The notes: a model not told the origin generated them from the sequence alone. Counted from the stretch's first letter, positions 6,780 through 63,438 are shown. The stretch: DNA of 64,000 nt from Anaerolineaceae bacterium oral taxon 439 (GCA_001717545.1 CP017039.1:1674001-1738000); one strand, 5' to 3'. A program made the numbers and translations.

Positions 6780-8192
6780 CTACGGAAAATCCGTTTTCAG
6801 CCATGTATTCGGGTCGACGTAAATCCCGTTAACGCGGATTTCCCAATGCAGGTGCGGCCCGGCAGAGCGGCCGGAATTCCCGATCAGCCCGATGACCTCG
6901 CCGCGCTTTACTTCCTGTCCGACGGTGACGACCGCTTGAGATTGGTGCGAATAGGTCGAGTATACGCCCCAGCCATGGTCAATAATCGTGTGAAGCCCAT
7001 GAATCGGAAGCTCGGAACAGAAGAGGACTTTCCCGTCCGCAGCGGCGTAGATATTGATATTATTCGCGGTCCAAACGCCGAAGTCAAGCCCTGTGTGGTA
7101 ATTTTTGTAATCGGTATTATTGTACGTCCTGCGGTTTCCGAAACCCGACGCAATATATGGCTCGTCGACAGGGTAGGACATTCGCGTTCCCCATTGCCGG
7201 ATCGGCGACGTCTCGGTCACGCCTTCGAGCGCCTGTCGGTCAATATCGTTGCTGTGATCTTCGAGAGTAGCGGCGTCGACGCCGGAAACGACCTCGTAGG
7301 TAAACAGGCCCGGCTCGATCAGGATTTTCTGGTCGAGCGTAAAGGTTTCGCCGTCTTCAGCAACCGCTCGCAGGCTGATATCGCTCAGGCCGGTGGTCTG
7401 GTCGGCTTTGATCCCGATCATCGCGATCTTCCTGTCGGGAGTCTCTGGATCGTTGAAAAAGCGAAGCGCGGCTCCGGCGAGCGACCCCGAGAGGTCGAGA
7501 TTCTTCGCCTGATCGATTTCCAATACATAGGTCTCGCCCTGAACGAGCGGAAGGCTCCGCAATTCGAGCCTGGTAAACAGCGGCGTAATACTTTGAGCGG
7601 TTGCGTCGCTGCCTTCCGCCGATCTGACAAAAACGAGCTGGCGGTCGGTACGGTCCCAGTTGCCGGCAAGCTGATTTATTTTCTTTAATTCTGCCGGATT
7701 GACGTTCTGCTGAACCGCTTTTTCGATTAGCGTTTCTCCCTCGGCGAACGAAGAGGCGGGGGCGTAGGGCGACGCTTCTTCGGATTCCACGAGGATAATC
7801 GTTTTTCCGATATAAAACTCTGAACGGCTGGCGACATGATTGATTCGAAGGATGTCCTCCGCGCTCATTCCGGACCGGATCGCAACGCTTGAGAGCGTAT
7901 CGCCGATCTGGACAGCGTCGGTTACGAGCTTCCCGGACAGCCCTTTTAGCGAGGGGATTTTAATCTGATCGCCGATCGAAATCGTATCCGCGTTGGCAAT
8001 GTTGTTAATATCGATAATTTCCTGAACAGTTGTTCCAAATCGAATCGCGACCAGCGAAAGAAAATCGCCGGATTCAATCTGATAAATCGGGTAAACGTCG
8101 TTATTTTGAGCGAAAACGACTGCGGCCGGGAGAAGAATAGCGGCGAAAAGAATCGGGAAAAAATGAGCGCGGCGGATCAGCTTGTTCAACAT
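6780..8192 (-). CDS. Secreted LysM-containing M23 metallo-endopeptidase
   Basis: About 470 residues from the ATG at 8192. A signal peptide (MLNKLIRRAHFF, hydrophobic stretch, AxA-type site at VFA) is followed by two clear LysM domains (YPIYQIESGDFLSLVAIRFG; VQIGDTLSSVAIRSG) and a weaker third. A beta-rich middle section follows, then a C-terminal peptidase M23 domain with GFGNRR, the zinc ligands H-x3-D in YHTGLDFG, and HLHWE. Such enzymes cut cross-links in peptidoglycan outside the membrane. The frame opens at 8213, but a TACAAT lies between that ATG and the one at 8192, which also gives a proper signal peptide, so 8192 is preferred. Downstream of the Xer gene on the same strand. Confidence 0.88.
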   Translation of the reverse strand: MLNKLIRRAHFFPILFAAILLPAAVVFAQNNDVYPIYQIESGDFLSLVAIRFGTTVQEIIDINNIANADTISIGDQIKIPSLKGLSGKLVTDAVQIGDTLSSVAIRSGMSAEDILRINHVASRSEFYIGKTIILVESEEASPYAPASSFAEGETLIEKAVQQNVNPAELKKINQLAGNWDRTDRQLVFVRSAEGSDATAQSITPLFTRLELRSLPLVQGETYVLEIDQAKNLDLSGSLAGAALRFFNDPETPDRKIAMIGIKADQTTGLSDISLRAVAEDGETFTLDQKILIEPGLFTYEVVSGVDAATLEDHSNDIDRQALEGVTETSPIRQWGTRMSYPVDEPYIASGFGNRRTYNNTDYKNYHTGLDFGVWTANNINIYAAADGKVLFCSELPIHGLHTIIDHGWGVYSTYSHQSQAVVTVGQEVKRGEVIGLIGNSGRSAGPHLHWEIRVNGIYVDPNTWLKTDFP

Positions 8193-54774: not shown

Positions 54775-55494
54775 TCAGGCCTTCCTGAAGAGTTCTTTTT
54801 CGATCGCGGCCTGATCCAGCTTCTTCATACAGAAGAACCAATCGTAGCAATGCGTTTCGCCGCTTTGATCTCCCATGCGCTCCTTCGCAACGCCGCAGGA
54901 ACCCGCGGGCGGAACGATCACGTCGTCGCCCGGGCGCCAATCCGCCGGCAGCGCGACGTCGAACGCATCCGCCGTCTGCAAGCCGACGACGACGCGGTAC
55001 AATTCGTCGAAATTCCGGCCAAGGCTCAGCGGGTAGTAAATAATCGTTCGGATAACGCCCTTCGGATCGATAACGAAGACGGCGCGAACCGCTCGCGTGC
55101 TGCTTTCGCCCGGCTGGATCATCCCGTATTTCGTCGCAACTTCCATCGTGATATCTTCGATAAGCGGGAACCTGACTTCAACGTTCTTCATTCCCTTATA
55201 TTCAATTTTTTCGTTAATTGTACGCAGCCAGGCGATATGGCTGTACAGGCCGTCGACCGACAGGCCGACCAGCTTCGTATTAACTTTCGCGAATTTCTCT
55301 TCGAGCGACGCGAAGGTCATGAATTCCGACGTGCAGACCGGAGTAAAGTCAGCCGGATGGCTGAACAGGATAACCCAGCTGCCGCTGAAGTCAGCAGGGA
55401 AATTGATATCGCCCTGCGTCGTAACGGCGTGGAAGGAGGGAGCTTTATCGCCAATACGCGGCATCATCACAACTTGATTTTCAACAGATTCCAT
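54775..55494 (-). CDS. Peroxiredoxin, Prx6/AhpC-TSA type
   Basis: 239 residues. Thiol peroxidase that destroys hydrogen and organic peroxides. The peroxidatic Cys is in HPADFTPVCTSEF near residue 53; the catalytic Arg lies in RAVFVIDPKGVIR. The long C-terminal domain (VVGLQTADAFDVALPADWRP) marks the Prx6/archaeal-type class, with extra cysteines near the end (GSCGVAKERM, HCYDWFFC) that could resolve the sulfenic acid. GGAGAAG precedes the ATG. The promoter carries a near-perfect PerR box, so peroxide induction is likely. Confidence 0.94.
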   Translation of the reverse strand: MESVENQVVMMPRIGDKAPSFHAVTTQGDINFPADFSGSWVILFSHPADFTPVCTSEFMTFASLEEKFAKVNTKLVGLSVDGLYSHIAWLRTINEKIEYKGMKNVEVRFPLIEDITMEVATKYGMIQPGESSTRAVRAVFVIDPKGVIRTIIYYPLSLGRNFDELYRVVVGLQTADAFDVALPADWRPGDDVIVPPAGSCGVAKERMGDQSGETHCYDWFFCMKKLDQAAIEKELFRKA

Positions 55495-55688: not shown

Positions 55689-55717
55689 TTGACAATATAG
55701 AATTAAAGTTCTATAAT
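55689..55717 (+). promoter_or_regulatory. Consensus promoter with LexA-like operator for the PolB cassette
   Basis: TTGACA (55689-55694), 17-bp spacer, TATAAT (55712-55717): every position is consensus. TATAGAA (55696-55702) and TTCTATA (55709-55715) form a perfect 7-bp inverted repeat that fills the spacer and enters the -10. Its core GAATTAAAGTTC (55700-55711) differs by one base from GAAC-N4-GTTC, the Gram-positive-type LexA box. The ATG at 55725 is 7 nt behind the -10, so the message should be leaderless. Confidence 0.75.
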
Positions 55718-55724
55718 TTGAAAT

Positions 55725-56321
55725 ATGAAACCGCTCGCCGCTATCCAACCGCAGCTTCCGCTTCCGTCCGACCGGCAATCAGGATTATACACCATTTCCG
55801 GCCCGCATGCGGCCGGGACGCCGCTGCTGCAGCTGGCCGCGCATCTCGCGCTGAACCGGACCGTCCGAATCCTCGACTGCGGAAATCGCGGCGACATGTA
55901 CCGGATCGCGAAAACGCTGCGCGGCCTGACGCCGGATCCGGCCGCGGTGATGAGCCGCGTCCTCCTGTCGCGCGCGTTTACCTGTTATCAGGCGGAAGCG
56001 CTGCTCAGGAACAGCCGCGACCTGGCGCGGACGCCAATCCTGGTCCTGGATCTTCTCGCGACGTTTTTTGACGAAAGTGTCGGCACGTCTGAGATCGGCC
56101 GCCTGTTCCGCGATACGCAGGATCACCTGAAAACGATCGCGGCGCAAAATTTCGTTATCGTCAGCGTCAGCCCGCCCGGCGAAGCCACGGCGGAACGCGC
56201 CGCCCTCTGGAACGGGCTGACGCGGCTGTCAACAGGATTTATCCAACTGGATGAGCGGAGCGAAGCGCGGGACGGCGAACGGGTCCGGGAACCGCCCGCG
56301 GACCAGCTACCGTTATTCTAA
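55725..56321 (+). CDS. Degenerate RecA/RadA-like protein with C-terminal beta-clamp motif
   Basis: 198 residues. The start (LYTISGPHAAGTPLLQLAAH, residues 21-40) looks like a RecA-type P-loop strand and helix, but the Walker A Lys and Ser/Thr are gone (GPHAAGTP, residues 26-33). A Walker-B-like strand TPILVLDLLATFFDE is near residues 103-117, then NFVIVSVSPPGEATAERAAL as in RadA-like folds. The last five residues are QLPLF, which fits the bacterial sliding-clamp-binding pentapeptide QL[S/D]LF-like consensus; PQLPLP occurs near the N-terminus too. Probably a non-ATPase accessory factor linking the polymerase to the clamp, comparable in logic to ImuA. First gene of the cassette, under the LexA-like promoter. 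Confidence 0.75.
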   Translation: MKPLAAIQPQLPLPSDRQSGLYTISGPHAAGTPLLQLAAHLALNRTVRILDCGNRGDMYRIAKTLRGLTPDPAAVMSRVLLSRAFTCYQAEALLRNSRDLARTPILVLDLLATFFDESVGTSEIGRLFRDTQDHLKTIAAQNFVIVSVSPPGEATAERAALWNGLTRLSTGFIQLDERSEARDGERVREPPADQLPLF

Positions 56322-56359
56322 ATAAAAAGACAACTTCTGGACACTGAGGAGGAAAGAAA

Positions 56360-56704
56360 ATGGGAAGAACGATCCGATCCGCGTCACAAACCTGGTATGA
56401 AGAAGAGAAAGCGTTAGCGCGTTTTGCACGCGCGCTGCGGCGCGAAGATCAGCGCTGTTTAAGCGAATTGCTGGATCTTTCCAGGCTGCATATCGCCGAA
56501 GCCTCTTACGCCGCCAACCTGTATCCGATGGATATCTTTCTGATCAGTATGCTGATCGAAACGTATAAGAAACTGGTCCGATCGGAAGCGAAGGTTTCGG
56601 AACTCTGCGCAAGGCTCGGAATCGAAGCGCCGCAGGAACGCGAACTCCCGATTTCGACCGATATTCAATCCCTGATCGCCTCGCTCGGAGACGCGGAGGA
56701 CTGA
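56360..56704 (+). CDS. Small helical protein of the PolB cassette
   Basis: 114 residues, predicted mostly alpha-helical (SQTWYEEEKALARFARALRR, LSELLDLSRLHIAEASYAAN, MDIFLISMLIETYKKLVRSE). Not recognised as a named family. GGAGG (56349-56353) precedes the ATG at 56360. It lies 38 bp after the RadA-like gene and 5 bp before the polymerase gene, so it is cotranscribed and likely a subunit of the same complex. Confidence 0.75.
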   Translation: MGRTIRSASQTWYEEEKALARFARALRREDQRCLSELLDLSRLHIAEASYAANLYPMDIFLISMLIETYKKLVRSEAKVSELCARLGIEAPQERELPISTDIQSLIASLGDAED

Positions 56705-56709
56705 CCGGA

Positions 56710-58947
56710 ATGAACGAGACCTCCCGGGGCTGGCTTCTGGATCTTTATGAAGATGAAAACGACGGCGTCCGCCTCTGGTTCATCCTTGAAGACGGAACGC
56801 GCCGAATGTTCCGGCAGCCGTTTCAAGTCGCGTTTTACCTCGCCGGCGCGACGGACCGGCTCCATCAATGCTGCCTTGAGCTGCGAAACGCGCCGGGCGT
56901 ACTGAAACTCAGCCGCGCCGTCAAGCAGGACGTTTTCAAACCGGATCCGATCTGCGCTTTAGAAATATGGACCGATAATCCGACGCGGCAGGCGGCGCTC
57001 TTCCGCCGGCTCAAAAAACGCTACGCCGAGCTGACGTTCTACAACACCGATCTCCCTGTCCAGATTCATCACGCCGCCCGATACGGAACGTTCCCGCTGG
57101 CGTACTGCGAGCTGCGTTATGAAAAGGAAAGCCGGACGCTGGAAACGATCCGTATCCTGAATTCGCGCTGGGACGTCGCGCCGGTCCTGCCGCCCCTACG
57201 CGTCATGACGATCGAACCCGACCGTAACCCGGCGCAGGAAGCGCCGCGCTTTCTTCGGATCGAAACGGCCGGAACCCGTCCGCAGCGCGTCAGGCTCGCC
57301 GAGCGGAAAAAAATTATTCCAGCGCTGAATCAGGCCATCGCCGCGCAGGATCCCGACCTGATCCTGACGCAAAATGGCGACGACTGGCTGTTTCCCTTCC
57401 TGCTCGACGTAGAAAACGAGCGTGCGGACGCCGCGCCGGCGGAAAAGCTCGTGATCAGCCGCGATCCCGAACGCGGGGTCCAGAAAAAAAAAGAAACCAG
57501 CTATTTCTCCTATGGGCAGGTTATTTACCGCAGCTGTGAAGCGCATCTTTTTGGACGCTGCCATATCGATACGCAAAACACACTTCTCTGGAAAGATTAC
57601 GGGCTGGACGGGACGATCGAAACCGCCCGCGTAACCGTGCTCCCGATCGAACAGGCCGCCCGCGCTTCGTCGGGTTCCGGAATCTCCGCGATGCAGATGC
57701 TGACCGCGCTCGAACGCGGGATCCTTGTCCCGGAGCAGAAGCAGCAGGTCGAAACGATTAAAACCGGCCCCGAGCTCATCCGTTCCGACCGCGGCGGGCT
57801 CATCTATCAGCCGGTCACCGGCTTTCATACCAACGTCGCGCAGCTCGATTTCACCTCGATGTACCCCGCGATTATTATCAACAGCAATATCTCGCCGGAG
57901 ATTCCGCTCCCGGACGGACTGGAAGCGGCGTCGCCGGAACTGGGCGTCGTCCCTGCGACGCTGAAACCGCTGTATGAAAAACGCGTTGAACTGAAACATA
58001 AGCTCCTGACGATCCCCGATAAACACGGAGCGCTCTGGAAAAGTTACGCCGCCCGGGCTTCCGCGCTGAAATGGCTGCTGGTCGTCTGCTTTGGGTTTCT
58101 CGGCTATAAAAACGCGCGGTTCGGACGGATCGAAGCGCACGAAGCGGTAACGGCCGGCGGGCGCGAGGTCCTGATGCGCGCGAAGCAGGTCTGCGAATCG
58201 ATGGGTTTCCGCGTGCTGCATATGTACGTAGACGCGCTTTGGATCGCGAAGCCCGGCTGCCGAACGGTCGCGGATTTCGACGACGTCCTCGCCGAAATCT
58301 CCCGCCAGACGCGGTTGCTGATCTCGTTGGACGGGATTTATCGATGGGTCGCGTTCCTGCCGTCGCGCGCGAACGACCGCGTTCCCGTTCCGAATCGATA
58401 TTTTGGCTGTTTTCAGGACGGGAGCCTGAAAATCCGCGGGCTGGAACTCCGCCGGCATGACAGCCCGCCCTGGGTCGCCGGCGTCCAGAAACAGATCCTG
58501 AACGTTCTCGCCTCCGCCTGGGACGTTCGGCAGATTTCCGACCTGCTCCCGAAAGCTTTCCGGATTTTCGTCGACGCGCTGAATTGCCTGAACGAAGGGA
58601 ACGTCGCGATCGAGGAATTGATCCTGACGATTCGGATCAGCCGCGAGCCCGAAGCGTATAAATCGCCGACCGCCGCCGTCCGCGCCGCGATGCAGCTTCA
58701 GGAACGAACCGGGAAACGCACGGCGCCGGGGCAAAAGGTGCGGTTCCTGTTCGTTGAAAGCGAATCCGGCGTTTATAACTGGGATCAGCCGATCGAGCAA
58801 TATCCGCCCGAACCGATCGACCGTCCGAAATACCGCGAGCTGCTAGCCCGCGCGGTCGGCTCGGTTCTTTGGCCATTCGGCATTAAAGCGAAAGATCTCA
58901 GCGACTACGCAAATAATTCATTGCAGCTGCGCTTCGAGGGTGTGTAA
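56710..58947 (+). CDS. PolB2-like family-B DNA polymerase with altered catalytic motifs
   Basis: 745 residues. Palm motif A is intact (LDFTSMYPAIII, Asp380). Motif B reads ALKWLLVVCFGFLG: Lys454 is kept, but the usual N-S is V-V. Motif C reads YVDALW (506-511) in place of YGDTDS: Asp508 is kept, the second Asp is Leu510. In the exonuclease half, the DxE of ExoI is RIE (FLRIETAG), and ExoII (TQNGDDWLFPF) lacks the second acidic position, so proofreading is unlikely. This combination matches the description of PolB2 (Dpo2-like) polymerases, archaeal members of which are damage-inducible; whether it still polymerises must be tested. The C-terminal ~300 residues are thumb-like and well conserved in character (VRFLFVESESGVYNWDQPIE). 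Confidence 0.85.
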   Translation: MNETSRGWLLDLYEDENDGVRLWFILEDGTRRMFRQPFQVAFYLAGATDRLHQCCLELRNAPGVLKLSRAVKQDVFKPDPICALEIWTDNPTRQAALFRRLKKRYAELTFYNTDLPVQIHHAARYGTFPLAYCELRYEKESRTLETIRILNSRWDVAPVLPPLRVMTIEPDRNPAQEAPRFLRIETAGTRPQRVRLAERKKIIPALNQAIAAQDPDLILTQNGDDWLFPFLLDVENERADAAPAEKLVISRDPERGVQKKKETSYFSYGQVIYRSCEAHLFGRCHIDTQNTLLWKDYGLDGTIETARVTVLPIEQAARASSGSGISAMQMLTALERGILVPEQKQQVETIKTGPELIRSDRGGLIYQPVTGFHTNVAQLDFTSMYPAIIINSNISPEIPLPDGLEAASPELGVVPATLKPLYEKRVELKHKLLTIPDKHGALWKSYAARASALKWLLVVCFGFLGYKNARFGRIEAHEAVTAGGREVLMRAKQVCESMGFRVLHMYVDALWIAKPGCRTVADFDDVLAEISRQTRLLISLDGIYRWVAFLPSRANDRVPVPNRYFGCFQDGSLKIRGLELRRHDSPPWVAGVQKQILNVLASAWDVRQISDLLPKAFRIFVDALNCLNEGNVAIEELILTIRISREPEAYKSPTAAVRAAMQLQERTGKRTAPGQKVRFLFVESESGVYNWDQPIEQYPPEPIDRPKYRELLARAVGSVLWPFGIKAKDLSDYANNSLQLRFEGV

Positions 58948-59911: not shown

Positions 59912-62830
59912 TCAGCGCGCGTTCGCCTTCATCAGCTCGCGTGTCTTCCGAAGCGTCTCGCGCAAATACTGCCCTGTATACGATCTTTCGACAGCCGCGA
60001 CTTCGTCGGGCGTTCCGGTCGCGACAACCTCTCCGCCGCGAACCCCGCCCTCGGGGCCCAGATCGATAATGTAATCCGCGACTTTAATAATATCCAGGTT
60101 GTGCTCGATGATCAAAACGGAATTCCCTGCGTCGACCAGCTGATCCAGCACGTCGACCAGCCGGTGTACGTCGGCGGCATGCAGCCCGACCGACGGCTCG
60201 TCAAGAACATACAGCGTCCGTCCGGTCGCCCGCTTCGACAGCTCTTTCGCTAATTTGACCCGCTGCGCCTCGCCGCCGGAGAGCGTCGTTCCGGCCTGAC
60301 CGATCCGGATATAGCCCAGTCCAACCTCCTGAAGAACGCGGAGTTTATTCCTGATCGGTTCGAAAGCGTCAAAAAATTCAATCCCCTCGTCGATCGTCAT
60401 ATCCAAAACGTCAGCGATATTTTTCCCTTTATATTTGACCTGAAGCGTTTCATTATTAAACCGCTTCCCATGACAAACGTCGCATTCAACGAAAATATCC
60501 GGCAGGAAATGCATCTCGATCTTGGTCACGCCCTGCCCTTCGCAGGCCTCGCACCGTCCGCCATGAACATTGAACGAAAACCGCCCCGCCGAATACCCGC
60601 GCAGATTACTTTCCGGCAGCCCGGCAAACAGCTTCCGGATTTCGTCGAAAACGCCGGTATACGTCCCGGGGTTCGATCGCGGCGTCCGTCCGATCGGAGA
60701 TTGATCGATGTCGATAACCTTATCAAGATAGGAAATCCCTTCGATCTTCTTAAATTTACCCGGCGTCGTTTTCGCATGGTTCAAATCGCGCGCCAGAACG
60801 TTATATAAAATATCGTTCATCAGCGTCGACTTTCCGCTTCCCGACGATCCGGTAATACAGACCAGCTTTCCCAGCGGAATTTCGACGTCGATGTTTTTGA
60901 GGTTGTTTTCCGCCGCTCCAATGATCCAAAGCGATTTCCCATGTCCTTCGCGGAGACGCGCCGGAACGGGAACGACCTTCCGCCCGGTAATATAATCGGC
61001 GGTCAACGAATCCTCATGCGCCAAAATTGACGTCAGCGGCCCCGAGGCGACGACATTTCCGCCGTTGACGCCCGCGCCCGGGCCGATATCGACGATCCAA
61101 TCCGCCGCTTCGATCGTATCGGCGTCATGCTCCACGACCAGAACGGTATTGCCCTGGTCGCGAAGCTGTTTCAGCGTCATCAGCAATTTATCGTTATCGC
61201 GCGGATGGAGCCCGATCGACGGCTCGTCCAGGACGTACAGGACGCCCATCAGCCGCGAACCGATCTGCGTCGCCAGCCGGATCCGCTGCGCCTCGCCGCC
61301 GGAAAGCGTCCCCGCGGATCGGTCCAGCGTCAGGTAATCAAGCCCGACGTTGACAAGAAACTCGAGCCGGTTATGAATCTCTTTAAAAATCTTATCCGCG
61401 ATCTGATGTTCCCTGTCGGAGAACATTTCATGATCCTTCTCGATCTCGGAAATCCAGCGGTACGATTCGGCGACGTTCTGTTCCGTGACTTCGATGATAT
61501 TCGTATTCTTAACCGTGACCGCTAACGACGAAGGGCAGAGCCGTTTCCCACCGCAATGCGGACAGGGCCTGACCGCCATGAAATCGGCAATCCGCGTCCG
61601 GATCCATTCAGAATTCGTCTCGCGGAAACGCCGCTCCAGGTTGGGGATAACGCCTTCGAACGGCGCTTCGATCGAAGAAACGCGGTTGTTTCTCCCTGAA
61701 AACTGCATTTTTATTTTCCGCGCCTTCGAGCCGAAAAGGATGACGTTCTGCTGTTCCTTTGTCAGCTTACCGAACGGCGTCGTCAGGTCGAATGCGTACG
61801 CCGCCGCGACCGCTTGCAGCTCCTGCCAGGTGTACGACATGTCGCCGTTCGACCCCGCGTGCCATTCAAGAACACGGATCGCCCCGTCCTGAAGCGAAAG
61901 ACTGCGATCCGGAACGATTAAATCCGGATCGATTTCCTGCTTGAATCCCAACCCCTGGCATTCGGGACACGCGCCGTTCGGCGTATTAAACGAAAACGAA
62001 CTCGGTTCAATCTCCGGGATCGAAATCCCATGGACCGGGCAGGCTAAAAATTCGGAGAACGCGTGGTCGACGGGAGGCTCCTGCGTCAGGTCGCAGACCG
62101 TCATATAGCCTTCCCCAACCTTCAGCGCGGTTTCAACCGAATCCGCCAGCCGCGTTCGGTTCTGCGCCGCTTCCTCGTCGGACTCAGCCGCGCGGATAAC
62201 GATCCGATCGACGACGGCTTCGATCGTATGCTTTTTATAGCGATCGAGCGTGATTTCTTCGTCGAGCGAATAAATCGTCCCGTCGATCCGGACGCGGACG
62301 AAACCACCTTTGCGAATCTCGTCTAAGACGACCTGATACGTTCCCTTCCGCGCGCGAACGACCGGCGCGAGAATCAGGAGACGCGTCCCGTTCGGGAATT
62401 TTTCAATCTGCGCGATGATCTCGTCGGAAGTCTGCTTGAAAACCTCCCTGCCGCATTCGGGACAATGCGGAACGCCGACCCGAGCGAAAAGCAGCCGCAA
62501 ATAATCGTAAATTTCGGTAATCGTGCCGACCGTCGAGCGCGGGTTGCGGTTCGTTCCTTTCTGATCGATCGAAACCGCCGGCGAAAGTCCTTCGATCGCG
62601 TCGACATCCGGTTTATCCATCTGTCCCAGAAATTGACGCGCGTAAGAAGAAAGCGATTCGACGTAGCGCCGCTGACCCTCGGCGAAAATCGTATCGAACG
62701 CCAGCGACGATTTTCCCGACCCGGAAAGACCGGTAATAACGACGAGTTTTTCGCGTGGGATCTCGACAGTAATATTTTTCAGATTATGCGTCCGCGCCCC
62801 GATGACGCGAATGGTATTCAAATCAGTCAT
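59912..62830 (-). CDS. uvrA: Excinuclease ABC subunit A
   Basis: 972 residues, full length. UvrA dimer finds bulky DNA lesions and loads UvrB in nucleotide excision repair. Walker A of the first ATPase [10 protein letters not shown] near residue 34; first zinc module with CPECG and later [12 protein letters not shown] signatures [12 protein letters not shown] and [12 protein letters not shown]; second Walker [11 protein letters not shown] near 655; and the zinc finger CEACEGQGV ... CDVCHGKRF, which holds the DNA-contacting loop. It follows ruvA by 29 bp in a repair operon. Confidence 0.98.
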
Positions 62831-62859
62831 AAACTCTTTTATCGTTTCCTATCCGCGAA

Positions 62860-63438
62860 TTATCCGAACGATTGAAGCGCAGCGCGAATCCGGTCCTCGA
62901 CCGTCCCGGGCGTATCCTTCGGGATCGACTGGACGGCGGCCTGCGCCTGAACCAGACTGTAGCCAAGCGCTGTCAGCGCTTCTACGACCTCGAAATCGAC
63001 CGCGCTCGAAGGAACGTTCTCCGAAAACGCGCCGCTTTCCGCCGGAACCTTCCCTTGAAGATGGAGCAGGATCTTCTGCGCCGTTTTTTTTCCCACGCCC
63101 GGAACGCGCGAAAGCAATCCCGCCTCCTCGCTCGCGACCGCTCGCCGGATCGCCGCAGGATTCAACGTCGACAGGATCGCCAGCGCCATTTTCGGACCGA
63201 CGCCGTTCGCGCCGATCAGGAGCTCAAAATATTCCAGCTCCTCTTCGGTCGTAAACCCGAACAGCAGCATTGCGTCCTGCCGAACGATAAACGCAGTAAA
63301 TAAAAACAGCTCTTTTCCAATTTCAGCGTTCGAAATCGTCTCGATCGGAGCGAATACCTGCAGGCCCAGACCCTGAACCGAGACGACAATCGAATCTTTT
63401 TTCTTCCGCTGAACGATTCCCTGAATACTCGCGATCAT
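62860..63438 (-). CDS. ruvA: Holliday junction branch-migration protein RuvA
   Basis: 192 residues. RuvA tetramer binds Holliday junctions and recruits RuvB. N-terminal OB fold ([20 protein letters not shown]), two helix-hairpin-helix motifs ([17 protein letters not shown] near residue 75 and [18 protein letters not shown] near 110), and the C-terminal RuvB-binding helical domain ([20 protein letters not shown]). The start lies 2 bp after the SpoU gene. ruvB and ruvC are not in the window. Confidence 0.95.

Follow-up and report, generated by a model that had tools for sequence, protein, structure and literature searches.

What do three closely spaced genes in the genome of Anaerolineaceae bacterium oral taxon 439 encode, and which signal turns them on? 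The window analyzed here, a stretch of 64 kb, covers positions 1674001-1738000 of the single-contig 2.95 Mb genome of this bacterium, to which, among named organisms, Leptolinea-like and other Anaerolineaceae of the Chloroflexota are closest. A first-pass annotation had described three close genes behind one promoter and had read them as a bacterial mutasome built on PolB2. The ORFs, their coordinates, order and gaps were reproduced exactly, with all three genes on the + strand and separated by spacers of 38 and 5 bp, and at 55689, the start given to the locus, a perfect TTGACA-N17-TATAAT promoter begins. In our view, the locus very probably encodes a bacterial PolB2 mutasome, with the genes for iRadA, PPB2 and PolB2 forming one operon controlled by LexA. 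Its features and neighbors are the following:

54775-55494, divergent to the operon: peroxiredoxin gene, upstream neighbor
55689-55717, + strand: sigma-70-type promoter TTGACA-N17-TATAAT, exact consensus; layout shared by the regions upstream of the relatives' iRadA
55698-55713, no strand assigned: putative LexA-type operator, palindrome TAGAATTAAAGTTCTA, with the core GAAT-N4-GTTC at 55700-55711
55725-56321, + strand: iRadA, 198 aa, RadA/Rad51 homologue without the Walker A Lys and with a C-terminal DQLPLF (by profile and fold)
56360-56704, + strand: PPB2 (arCOG07300 family), 114 aa, helical, MGRT N-terminus (motif according to PMC11791011)
56710-58947, + strand: PolB2 (bacterial G2 group), 745 aa, family-B DNA polymerase (by motifs and profiles)
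59912-62830, - strand: uvrA, downstream of the operon
62860-63438, - strand: ruvA, downstream of the operon

Upstream, a gene for SmpB accompanies the divergent peroxiredoxin gene, and the downstream genes, coding for a LysM protein and, further on, for UvrA and RuvA, are convergent with the operon. The clustering of the DNA-repair genes uvrA and ruvA near the operon (59912-63438, opposite strand) is suggestive; they are neighbors only and lie outside the operon.

Gene content and family membership

An association of such genes, which the first-pass annotation thought might have been noted by others, was indeed described in 2014 by Makarova and colleagues: in archaea and in several bacteria they linked PolB2 and arCOG07300 to an inactivated RadA, they placed the lexA of some bacteria in the predicted operon of the trio, and they suggested that the products form a complex responding to damage (PMC4104785). 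In 2025, Timinskas, Timinskas and Venclovas named the parts iRadA, PPB2 and PolB2, reported iRadA-PPB2-PolB2 as the sole gene order found in bacteria, defined the MGRT arm, assigned the clamp motifs mostly to iRadA, and modelled a heteropentamer PolB2:iRadA:PPB2(3), called the PolB2 mutasome (PMC11791011). A survey from 2026 repeats this description for bacteria (PMC12926913).

Neither iRadA nor PPB2 received a useful family name from Pfam or NCBIfam. An iRadA profile with 18 relatives matched archaeal RadA chains (Pyrococcus RadA variants) at E = 2.7e-5, and the AlphaFold2 model of iRadA (pLDDT 86.5, pTM 0.82) matched structures of the RAD51 paralogue RAD51D and of RadA at a Foldseek E of about 1e-7, both in line with the RadA-like identity proposed before. 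In the Walker A loop, GPHAAGTP takes the place of GxxxxGK[ST], so the reported loss of its Lys was correct as well, and the protein displays the hallmark of the family, a RadA/Rad51 core domain without the N-terminal domain and without Walker A. Its C-terminus, DQLPLF, is an exact QLxLF beta-clamp motif situated on a low-confidence tail of the model, and a QxxLF tail was revealed in 14 of the 18 aligned iRadA sequences. In the family, the clamp motif is found in iRadA or in PolB2 and rarely in both, and here the end of PolB2, SLQLRFEGV, is without QLxLF.

The second protein, previously noticed as a small helical protein of 114 aa, is also predicted to be all-helical in our model of moderate confidence (pLDDT 72.5), with helices at residues 8-24, 28-50, 57-86 and 102-112. 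Because its MGRT N-terminus is invariant in the alignment of 18 sequences, it is, as judged from this motif, a member of the known family arCOG07300/PPB2. Comparison of the model with the PDB gave no reliable match (best E 2.6), and the published sigma-factor-like similarity of PPB2 was not recovered with this model, which derives from a shallow alignment.

Among 35 related GTDB loci, all 33 with enough upstream DNA kept the order iRadA-PPB2-PolB2, the three genes hence staying together in relatives more than chance would allow. Of 400 Chloroflexota genomes sampled, 24 gave a strong match (>670 bits) to a PolB2 profile, namely ten of the same family (the own genome included), twelve of the same order and two of the same class, while the matches outside the class (<=78 bits) probably represent other family-B polymerases. 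Within the genus, PolB2 was detected in 13 of 14 genomes, in one of them by a partial match only. Nearly all family hallmarks that a sequence can reveal are seen here: together with the gene order, the locus shows MGRT, the loss of Walker A, the clamp tail of iRadA, lost exonuclease residues and a replaced first Asp of motif C. Going by these sequence hallmarks and the published family (PMC4104785, PMC11791011), the idea of a bacterial mutasome built on PolB2 stands, and the locus is a member of the known PolB2 mutasome family and not of a new kind.

Some relatives revealed variations of this arrangement. In other families of the Anaerolineae, a gene of about 137 aa with a LuxR/GerE-type HTH comes first after the LexA-type promoter and is followed by the trio (L096, L097, L098, L103, L104, L105, L106, L107 and L111; for example L097:171-593 and L103:103-516). 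Its product could be a second-layer regulator, and the main text of PMC11791011 contains no such first gene. PolB2 was matched more than once within G145 and within G025, perhaps through operon duplication or, in the case of G025, through contig fragments. In a few relatives PolB2 is interrupted by an in-frame stop or the ORF of iRadA is split (G006, G013, G137; iRadA of L011), which may indicate pseudogenes or assembly errors.

The promoter and its LexA-type operator

The TTGACA-N17-TATAAT promoter is the sole exact match in the window, and the palindrome lies inside its -35/-10 spacer, overlapping the -10 element. After removing near-identical PPB2 sequences, a set of 27 operons was compared with 100 dinucleotide shuffles: a promoter-embedded GAAY-N4-RTTC was present in 19 operons (shuffle mean 0.01, maximum 1), and the strict GAACN4GTTC in 13 (0.24 in shuffles). 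In the same genus, TTGACA, palindrome and TATAAT were in register in all 11 operons examined. Taken out of this context, the box is frequent and does not rise above the controls. GAACN4GTTC occurs at 72 sites in the genome, some of them inside genes such as that of a LysM-type protein at 8024; the bare box TAGAAYN4RTTC showed no excess genome-wide (12 versus 14 in the reversed control), and sites with one mismatch to GAACN4GTTC were not enriched in the window (41 versus 36 expected). Therefore, only the promoter position and the conservation of the site carry weight.

The genome carries a single LexA gene (near 458717 of the contig; L003:1294-2172), encoding a winged helix and an S24 peptidase domain. 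Its own promoter, TTGACG-GC-GAACAGTTGTTC-TGATATAGT, displays the same layout as that of iRadA, and the comparison of the lexA site TTGACGGCGAACAGTTGTTCTGATATAGT with the iRadA site TTGACAATATAGAATTAAAGTTCTATAAT reveals an operator common to both with one mismatch in the core. TTGAC followed by GAACN4GTTC was found for 21 of 27 located lexA genes including the own one, and accordingly for 20 of 26 in relatives. Judged by the position and conservation of the site, control of the operon by LexA, and hence by the SOS response, appears well supported. The first-pass annotation had proposed damage induction without naming a site, and the palindrome in the promoter now lends this proposal indirect support.

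Some observations count against LexA control. The palindrome of the window is one mismatch away from GAACN4GTTC, the recA promoter of the genome holds only a degenerate site, GAACATCCGTGC, and the dinB promoter no full site. In an alignment made by eye, the cleavage dipeptide of LexA appears to be Ala-Ser (GRIVASAP), compared with Ala-Gly in E. coli. In five genomes of the same genus (L079, L083, L084, L086 and L087), the lexA promoters are without the strict GAACN4GTTC, and the palindrome in the iRadA promoter is looser as well, GAAN6TTC, so that any operator consensus for the genus is provisional; judging from these promoters, LexA may be drifting in its specificity inside this single genus. 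The palindrome might be the operator of a regulator other than LexA, answering to another signal, e.g., oxidative stress or a stationary-phase cue, a reading to which the drift of the same-genus sites from the strict LexA consensus, the adjoining divergent peroxiredoxin gene and the LuxR-type regulator gene heading the operon in other families lend some weight. We nevertheless hold it to be rather unlikely, since the same box is found at the same promoter position at lexA, both in the own genome and in most relatives, B. subtilis and Gram-positives have GAAC-N4-GTTC as their established LexA motif (PMC3323433), and LexA is the one regulator repeatedly linked to the operon in bacteria (PMC4104785, PMC11791011).

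With LexA as the likely regulator, the new aspect of this locus would be its regulatory link, a LexA-type operator common to the operon and lexA across the Anaerolineae. In the literature searched, no earlier report of a LexA-type operator in a PolB2 mutasome promoter was found, and an operator shared with lexA is absent from the main text of PMC11791011.

The polymerase and related mutasomes

The third protein had been announced as a family-B polymerase with altered active-site residues. Its family is confirmed by PF00136 (3e-27) and by solved family-B polymerases, of which 5mdn was the best match to a profile of 14 relatives (E = 1.6e-61); the NCBIfam type-B polymerase model PRK05761 was matched with 1.1e-114, yet below the cut-off of that family. 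Aligned to 5mdn, the protein has YVD in place of the DxD of motif C: Tyr506 stands for the first Asp, and the second is kept as Asp508. The Asp of ExoII is replaced too, with FD of 5mdn aligning to WL. Asp380 of motif A is kept, and neither D380 nor D508 varies among the aligned relatives. The two metal ligands of RB69 and archaeal polymerases are the Asp of motif A and the second Asp of motif C. Since both are kept here, the residue pattern does not imply inactivity; the active site is altered, as claimed, and this is not the same as an inactive enzyme. For the D(K/R) motif, which precedes the palm domain and contacts the PPB2 arm (PMC11791011), a candidate was placed by spacing only: Asp360-Arg361 (DRGG), with an invariant D360, lies 148 residues before Asp508, and the corresponding distance in S. 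islandicus is 150 (253-DK to 403).

In 2008 and 2014, the family was read as catalytically dead (PMC2527604, PMC4104785), in which case PolB2 would be a scaffold and the trio a regulatory or structural complex loading or protecting other polymerases. The replacement of the first motif-C Asp and the loss of the exonuclease residues agree with such a role, but the invariance of the two remaining metal-ligand positions and the example of archaeal PolB2 (Sulfolobus Dpo2), which has lost the same Asp and is an active extender polymerase (PMC8764526), make it improbable.

Regarded as a PolB2 mutasome, the locus differs in nothing structural from the published one; the three families, the bacterial gene order, MGRT, the clamp motif of iRadA, the motif-C loss and the LexA link are the same, and a LexA-type operator is added for this locus. 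Dpo2 of Sulfolobus islandicus belongs to a related polymerase group and shows the same lost proofreading, lost first motif-C Asp and operon partner genes (PMC7390963, PMC8764526), whereas it is archaeal, works with PCNA and not with the beta clamp, and is under Orc1/Cdc6-type damage control and not under LexA. Archaeal PolB2 has no proofreading and strongly extends mismatched and lesion-ended primers (PMC8764526); damage induces it, and targeted mutagenesis depends on it (PMC7390963, cited after PMC11791011). The Pol V mutasome (UmuD'2C-RecA) likewise places a polymerase on a RecA/Rad51 homologue together with a small subunit and an inserted N-terminal arm (PMC11791011), but its polymerase is of the Y-family, its RecA is active, and UmuD undergoes self-cleavage.

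One Y-family gene (1131962-1132396), with a 415-aa ORF keeping the motifs LDAFFCAVE and SVDEAF, and a single DnaE were found in the genome, which thus lacks both ImuA-ImuB-DnaE2 and a second Y-family enzyme. That the locus is a disguised member of the ImuA-ImuB-DnaE2 type, with which it would share the logic of a RecA-like protein, a clamp-binding element and a polymerase under SOS control, can be dismissed almost with certainty, as its polymerase belongs to family B and not C, no Y-family-like subunit comparable to the inactive ImuB is encoded, for PPB2, which that system does not have, no homology to Y-family proteins was detected, and the genome offers no ImuB or DnaE2. Membership is refuted, and the likeness stands as a functional analogy.

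Proposed mode of action and its meaning

In the undamaged cell, LexA would occupy the palindrome between the -35 and -10 elements and block the promoter. Upon damage, RecA filaments would trigger the self-cleavage of LexA, in keeping with established knowledge of the SOS response, and the three proteins would be made together. Following the published AlphaFold models of the family, PolB2 would bind iRadA via a RadA-type oligomerization motif, and a PPB2 trimer would insert a single MGRT arm close to the active site, while the iRadA tail, in which the motif of the family models is seen, would dock the complex on the beta clamp. Having no working proofreading domain, PolB2 would extend distorted primer ends past lesions, as can be expected from Sulfolobus Dpo2, the insertion opposite the lesion being made beforehand, probably by DinB or the replicase. 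The outcome would be survival at the cost of mutations, as shown for Sulfolobus Dpo2.

To our knowledge, there is no experimental study of any bacterial PolB2 complex. With neither ImuA-ImuB-DnaE2 nor a second Y-family enzyme in this genome, its chief SOS mutator may be the PolB2 complex. For the Anaerolineae as a whole, we consider the chances evenly balanced that an archaeal-derived PolB2 mutasome with a LexA operator in its promoter is the main machine of SOS mutagenesis, forming inserter/extender partners with a single DinB-type enzyme where, as in this genome, neither ImuA-ImuB-DnaE2 nor UmuDC is present. A damage switch in the promoter, similar to that before lexA, suggests how this machine is turned on in the group. 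In many Anaerolineae, an operon for a polymerase of archaeal origin would carry its bacterial hosts' own LexA-type operator, at the promoter position that it has at lexA; this operator provides a concrete, testable link and a direct route to ask when bacterial PolB2 complexes act.
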